Positions 53,503-53,742 of a stretch of 64,000 nucleotides of DNA are shown here, one piece after another (position 1 is the stretch's first letter; each line of letters starts with the position of its first letter). The position numbers were made by a program, and so were the translations under genes. The stretch lies in NCBI RefSeq assembly GCF_004341685.1, contig NZ_SMAA01000011.1, forward strand, positions 1 through 64,000. Direction: 5' to 3'. Source of the stretch: Pectinatus cerevisiiphilus. GTDB lineage: Bacteria; Bacillota; Negativicutes; Selenomonadales; Selenomonadaceae. Below the pieces are notes generated by a model. It was not told the origin of the DNA. It was given only the letters and a program-made list of their open reading frames with translations, and made no database searches.

Positions 53503-53531
53503 TTGACAATATAAAAGCAATGATTTATAGT
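53503..53531 (+). promoter_or_regulatory. Sigma-70 promoter of the nifH operon
   Basis: TTGACA (53503-53508), 17 bases, TATAGT (53526-53531). Start near 53538 gives a leader of about 200 bases. Confidence 0.7.
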
Positions 53532-53616
53532 TACAACATCAACAGAAACGCTTAACAAAATTACAAAGATATTATAAGTAGTATATAGATAAGTTTCATT
53601 TATATTGCTTATGGAT

Positions 53617-53670
53617 GGACAAAGATGTCCCGCTGAGGTATGAATAAACCTACAGCGGGATTTTGTTTTT
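53617..53670 (+). promoter_or_regulatory. nifH leader: six-base-loop hairpin overlapping a terminator
   Basis: GGAC-AAAGAT-GTCC (53617-53630) has a six-base loop with A first and G fourth. Its 3' arm shares bases with a terminator (CCCGCTG 53629-53635 with CAGCGGG 53653-53659, plus GGT/ACC, then TTTTGTTTTT). The two structures exclude each other, as in ANTAR-controlled antitermination. A further A/T-rich hairpin (53583-53605) precedes it but has a seven-base loop. Confidence 0.6.
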
Positions 53671-53742
53671 CCGAGATAATTACCATGGGTGAGCTTACTG
53701 TTGATACTGTGGGATACTTTATTTACATTGGAGGGTTTTATT

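Follow-up and report, generated by a model that had tools for sequence, protein, structure and literature searches.

We propose that the untranslated leader of nifH in Pectinatus cerevisiiphilus, which lies in a 64,000-nucleotide window (contig NZ_SMAA01000011.1, here C11, positions 1 to 64,000) of the 2.63 Mb genome, is an ANTAR-type transcription attenuator that uses a single hexaloop, and we put the probability of this reading at about 0.8. It is carried by the anatomy of the leader, its conservation, the specificity of its loop letters and loop size, its co-occurrence with ANTAR genes and the logic of the regulon; from these we infer protein binding, the direction of the effect, the signal and the sufficiency of one hexaloop. 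The NifH protein is closest, among named relatives, to those of Pectinatus haikarae (96%) and P. frisingensis (95%).

Anatomy of the nifH leader

The features of the leader and the operon behind it are given below. Transcription starts throughout were placed from promoter positions, and terminator calls are thermodynamic (RNAfold windows). P2 denotes the hexaloop hairpin that overlaps the terminator.

53503..53531, plus strand: sigma-70 promoter of nifH, TTGACA-17-TATAGT (11/12 consensus matches; TATAGT/TATATT-N6-AUCA conserved in eight relatives)
53538..53742, plus strand: untranslated nifH leader (start at about 53538, from the distance to the -10 box)
53573..53613, plus strand: AU-rich stem-loop 5' of P2, Pectinatus-specific, without an A1/G4 hexaloop (predicted in five Pectinatus genomes, divergent sequences, z -1.9 to -3.9)
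53617..53630, plus strand: P2-type hexaloop hairpin GGAC-AAAGAU-GUCC, putative ANTAR-binding antiterminator (A1, G4 and GAC/GUC invariant in orthologues)
53627..53670, plus strand: predicted intrinsic terminator, stem 53627-53661 and T-run 53661-53670 (-21.1 kcal/mol; kept in all orthologous leaders)
53730..53735, plus strand: ribosome-binding site GGAGGG of nifH (from the sequence)
53743..54564, plus strand: nifH (TIGR01287, above cut-off)
54679..63791, plus strand: nifI1, nifI2, nifD, nifK, nifE, nifN-nifB fusion and a nifV-like gene (NCBIfam matches and gene order)

The first-pass annotation of this DNA had described a near-consensus sigma-70 promoter, a terminator within the leader, a hairpin with the six-base loop AAAGAT (A1, G4) sharing bases with the 5' arm of that terminator, and no sigma-54/NifA site, and all four were recovered. 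The promoter ranks best among 39 promoter-like sites in 10 kb. The terminator stem is followed by TTTTGTTTTT, and the bases GTCC at 53627-53630 are common to P2 and the terminator, so that the two structures are mutually exclusive. The leader folds far better than its shuffled versions (z -5.2). The -24/-12 (sigma-54), NifA upstream activating sequence (TGT-N10-ACA) and GlnR-like motifs were all absent from 53076-53742; a sigma-54 gene is present in the genome. No family reached threshold in an Rfam scan of the leader. When P2 of this leader is folded alone, A1 can pair with U6 to leave a tetraloop, but position 6 is A, G or C in most orthologues, which makes that pairing impossible there; the hexaloop is therefore the conserved form. 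The pattern GACANNGNNGTC (GACA..G..GTC) occurs 41 times in the genome, and the nifH copy alone has a strong overlapping terminator with a T-run.

Conservation and loop specificity

Our results showed that the orthologous nifH leader carries the terminator and the GAC-hexaloop-GUC hairpin in all nine Selenomonadaceae genomes compared, the host included. The loops are AAAGAU (twice), AAAGAA, AAAGAG, AAAGUA, AGAGAC (twice) and AUUGCA (twice), in which positions 1 (A) and 4 (G) alone are invariant; over the whole hairpin the invariant columns are G, A, C, A, G, G, T and C. The terminator sequences diverge, yet the 3' arm of the hairpin is still used in them.

This specificity was also seen in a wider set of 85 nifH leaders (the nine family members and 76 from a scan of named genomes), which were chosen by NifH similarity and not at random. 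A unit was counted where a hexaloop hairpin with a stem of 3 bp or more shared bases of its 3' arm with the 5' arm of a terminator predicted by RNAfold. The A1/G4 unit was present in 32/85 leaders (23 without the nine family members) and the G1/G4 unit in 12/85, while the other 14 letter pairs gave 0-7 and the mean of the 15 pairs other than A1/G4 was about 3.6 leaders. The binomial expectation for A1/G4 was 5.6 (p about 1e-16, from leaders that are not independent). With loops of 4, 5, 7, 8 or 9 bases, A1/G4 was found in 1-3 leaders. Six of the G1/G4 units, in ANTAR-positive genomes without an A1/G4 unit, look genuine. The closing pair is C-G in 34/36 leaders and the next pair A-U in 31/36; the sequence of these same closing pairs mattered in eutP (PMC3369931). 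In nine genomes, GACANNGNNGTC followed by a T-run had an overlapping terminator at 31 of 61 distinct sites, as against 4 of 51 for an A1/U4 control pattern. The pattern GGCA..G..GCC, counted in five genomes, gave raw counts above those of its reversed control (28 vs 4 in the host genome).

Several variations were noted among the leaders. C or G replaces A at loop position 1, with G4 kept, in the nifH leaders L125, L135, L152 and L156-L158, and in L155, L169 and L170. Several nifH and amtB leaders have two tandem hexaloop units, each with its own terminator; ahead of nifH such pairs lie 45-170 nt apart in L145, L134, L125, L152, L165, L167 and L127. A CUCU just 5' of P2 in L128 and L130 could pair with the hexaloop AGAG, a possible alternative fold that hides the loop. 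Two further nifH-like genes (G000, C15:24353-25168 and C10:95887-96705; L033 and L034) are 74% and 64% identical and lack this leader; none of the kind was seen on inspection before n2 and n3, the nifH paralogues of the host.

The ANTAR regulator and its co-occurrence with the element

Exactly one ANTAR protein is encoded in the host genome (C15:62194-62778, 73.5 bits over cut-off), a PdtaR/EutV-type REC-ANTAR response regulator whose gene begins six bases past a kinase gene with GAF_PdtaS and HisKA_2 domains. The closest solved relatives of the regulator are PdtaR (1S8N) and EutV (6WSH/6WW6). In the EutV-RNA structure, G4 is held by Arg142, Lys149, Glu160 and Tyr164 (PMC8934654); our reading of the alignment is that the host regulator keeps all four (R142, K149, E160, Y164), and also Lys143, Met172 and Arg175 of EutV.

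Among 50 further genomes with nifH, the unit (loop A or G at position 1, G at position 4) was present in 22/27 that encode an ANTAR protein vs 2/23 that do not (Fisher 1.8e-7). An ANTAR gene was located at most 3 kb upstream of nifH in Acetivibrio alkalicellulosi and in Pseudobacteroides cellulosolvens, directly ahead of it in the latter, and both nifH leaders have a C1/G4 hexaloop on a terminator.

Units before amtB and other nitrogen operons

The element is found before other nitrogen genes as well. The amtB leader of the host (C27:16674) and those of all eight relatives have an A1/G4 hexaloop on a terminator, and so do 14/16 further amtB leaders of the family, where other letter pairs reached at most 3. 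A close AmtB homologue (E <= 1e-100) was found in 12/16 ANTAR-positive and 0/14 ANTAR-negative genomes tested. The regulon was sampled by patterns, which give an incomplete listing, and its genes were named by sequence inspection, not all of them checked against families. On this basis, the host has further units ahead of an operon for diaminopropionate ammonia-lyase, of a purine-type permease accompanied by an amidohydrolase, of a sodium symporter and of a kinase-regulator set that includes a urea-type binding protein (urea ABC). Those of relatives stand before hutH, a nitrilase, an M20 amidohydrolase next to an amino-acid ABC transporter, and a dipeptidase, and in P. haikarae one lies ahead of a second kinase and ANTAR regulator pair. 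The amtB and other nitrogen-scavenging operons are probably under the same regulator through the same element. The earlier suggestion of an ANTAR-type switch before nifH gains support, at the level of sequence, from the A1/G4 enrichment, the tracking of ANTAR genes, and the units before amtB and other nitrogen operons. It also passes a check that the first-pass annotation had set for it, since a genome with no ANTAR protein would have refuted it and this genome encodes one.

Some candidates were set aside. On contig C13, two GACA..G..GTC matches separated by 33 bp were considered as a dual target, but they lie antisense inside a NUDIX gene and were attributed to chance. The unit ahead of leuS in P. 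frisingensis (L259) was left out of the target count, being more probably a T-box terminator, and a unit past gyrB in G043 (L254) may be due to chance.

One hexaloop or two, and other explanations

The hairpin at 53617-53630 has a stem of at least 3 bp, an A1/G4 hexaloop and an overlap with an intrinsic terminator, and it fits the minimal single-hexaloop definition (conserved G4 and A1, short stem; NAR 2022). The published dual-hairpin definition also includes a second hexaloop, P1. Known targets do have two, and their antitermination in vitro was lost when the linker was extended by 20 nt. No P1 (at least 3 bp, A1/G4 hexaloop, short linker) was found in this nifH leader, nor upstream of eight further hexaloop-terminator units inspected; the nifH element is therefore not classed as a dual-hexaloop ANTAR RNA, and is a single-hexaloop variant rather than a canonical target. 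The first-pass annotation, which took the hexaloop on the terminator as the recognised mark of an ANTAR target, is supported as to the antiterminator-like hairpin, although the element falls outside the dual-hairpin class. Its doubt over the upstream partner was well placed, since P1 is absent rather than merely degenerate.

A canonical dual-hexaloop target with a degenerate P1, either the stem at 53573-53613 or a ACAAAGAU repeat at 53563-53570 with a mismatched stem, is nevertheless the foremost rival, and we regard it as unlikely. The published P1 lies 5-12 nt upstream of P2 (PMC3369931), which fits this explanation, and an AU-rich stem stands a few bases 5' of P2 in all five Pectinatus leaders, though with divergent sequence. 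In the nifH leaders of Pectinatus, P2 comes unusually late, after about 50-85 nt that are partly taken up by this 13-bp stem; its loop is no hexaloop and is not conserved, and the stem has no counterpart in the relatives G178 and G179. Within 30 nt upstream of P2, an A1/G4 P1 was found in 1/36 nifH leaders, which is background (stem minimum of 3 and of 4 bp). In Selenomonadaceae amtB leaders with consensus promoters, moreover, the hexaloop stem starts 14-23 nt past the -10 box, about 8-16 nt past the presumed transcription start, and over amtB and other units the spacing from the -10 box to P2 is 10-27 nt; there is therefore no room for a P1, that is, a 12-nt minimal hairpin and a linker.

An attenuator that answers to a metabolite or to an RNA-binding protein other than ANTAR, its hexaloop being alike by descent or chance, is very improbable. 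The upstream hairpin could be a sensor, and the lack of an Rfam match would suit an undescribed element, but the hairpin agrees with ANTAR recognition in the letters and size of its loop and in its closing pairs, and these features track ANTAR genes; the element also precedes an ANTAR operon in a relative. Hardly credible is a constitutive terminator without a regulatory role, left over or insulating nif against upstream transcription. Terminators do often lie between genes (10 kb gave 14 terminator-like sites, shuffles 9.5), yet the gene 5' of the nif promoter (52447-53076) runs divergently on the minus strand, which places the terminator in the nif transcript, between the promoter and nifH, and terminator and P2 are retained together in all orthologous leaders.

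Some points weigh against a single-hexaloop ANTAR attenuator itself. The second hexaloop that the published definition demands was not found in this leader, and P1 deletion abolished eutP induction (PMC3369931). The first-pass annotation had proposed a search for an ANTAR response regulator near nif; the ANTAR operon of the genome is unlinked to nif (contig C15 vs C11). The regulator differs from EutV at three RNA contacts (R168 to Q, N173 to T, R177 to T), two of which PdtaR shares in the same alignment output (Q at 168, T at 177). The nifH leaders are phylogenetically related, so that their counts are not independent events, and the ANTAR-negative genomes are mostly from other phyla and many are metagenome-assembled, which partly confounds co-occurrence with phylogeny and completeness.

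Proposed mechanism

By default, RNA polymerase would start at the strong sigma-70 promoter and halt at the terminator 53627-53670. Under nitrogen shortage, a signal suggested by the target genes, the PdtaS-type histidine kinase would phosphorylate the sole ANTAR regulator, and the phosphorylated dimer would grip the emerging GGAC-AAAGAU-GUCC through A1 and G4. P2 held in this way would sequester bases needed by the terminator, and transcription would continue into nifHI1I2DKE(NB). A P2 born near the transcription start might do without the recruitment by P1 that has been proposed for eutP.

Comparison with known systems

In NasR/nasF of Klebsiella and AmiR/amiE of Pseudomonas, as in the Pectinatus nifH leader, a hexaloop lies over a leader terminator in the service of nitrogen metabolism; unlike it, they have a dual hairpin and other sensor domains. 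A close likeness is to EutV/eutP of Enterococcus faecalis, which shares the terminator-overlapping A1/G4 hexaloop with AC/GU closing pairs (PMC3369931, PMC8934654), a REC-ANTAR regulator with a partner kinase, and the conserved G4-contact residues. However, eutP has two hexaloops (linker of 5-12 nt in the eut leaders) and is no longer induced once P1 is removed, whereas the nifH leader has one, and the EutV regulon concerns ethanolamine whereas that of Pectinatus concerns nitrogen acquisition. PdtaS/PdtaR of Mycobacterium offers the closest solved regulator homologue (1S8N) and the same kinase GAF domain family, but belongs to another phylum; of the ANTAR RNAs in actinobacteria, few are followed by a terminator (PMC8164766).

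ANTAR elements before nitrogenase and other nitrogen genes, including those of Pelobacter carbinolicus, were predicted in 2012 (PMC3369931). These are alike in element type, position before nitrogenase genes and nitrogen regulon, but rested on a dual-hairpin covariance model, which single-hexaloop leaders do not fully match, and named other taxa. A single hexaloop suffices for ANTAR binding in vitro, and single-hexaloop sites were raised in 2022 merely as a possibility, with EutX as a suggestion (PMC8934654); as compared to that minimal motif, the Pectinatus hexaloops sit on terminators near transcript 5' ends. Literature searches for ANTAR with nif or amtB yielded no experimental report of this system. 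What is new is the proposed use of single-hexaloop transcription attenuators as a nitrogen regulon, a variant of ANTAR targets.

Other features of the window

A second A1/G4 hexaloop-terminator, aac-AAAGAG-gtt, lies at 1118-1192 (plus strand; -30.6 kcal/mol), 18 nt past a TATACT box, and no gene on the plus strand follows it. The preceding TTGACA is part of a 26-bp sequence that recurs in the genome and is probably the end of an insertion sequence, and the unit may be a leader decapitated by an insertion sequence or a sponge RNA like EutX. In the nifK-nifE gap (58580-58690, plus strand), a strong terminator (GGCTCTCTAATACAA..TTGTATTGGGGAGC) comes after another promoter-like TATAAT. No A1/G4 hexaloop goes with it, and the site may be a second attenuator, or a start, inside the cluster. 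A 6S RNA (Rfam RF00013, 62.9 bits) lies at 18059-18243 (plus strand).

Implications

It seems reasonably likely that single-hexaloop ANTAR attenuators near the transcript 5' end form a widespread class overlooked by dual-hairpin searches, and that in Selenomonadaceae and related anaerobes they are a master switch for nitrogen scavenging (N2, ammonium, urea, purines, amino acids), often in tandem and with no need of a recruitment hairpin. The 2022 structure paper asked how far single hexaloops contribute to ANTAR function (PMC8934654); leaders of the Pectinatus type are a large natural set where one hexaloop alone fits, and make that question directly testable. Our results also suggest that surveys built on dual-hairpin models may miss many ANTAR targets. 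They offer a regulatory answer for nif switching in those anaerobic Bacillota that have no NifA/sigma-54 sites in their leaders. In Pectinatus, a beer-spoilage bacterium, a stop signal in the mRNA seems to keep the nitrogenase genes off, and an ANTAR protein may cancel it.
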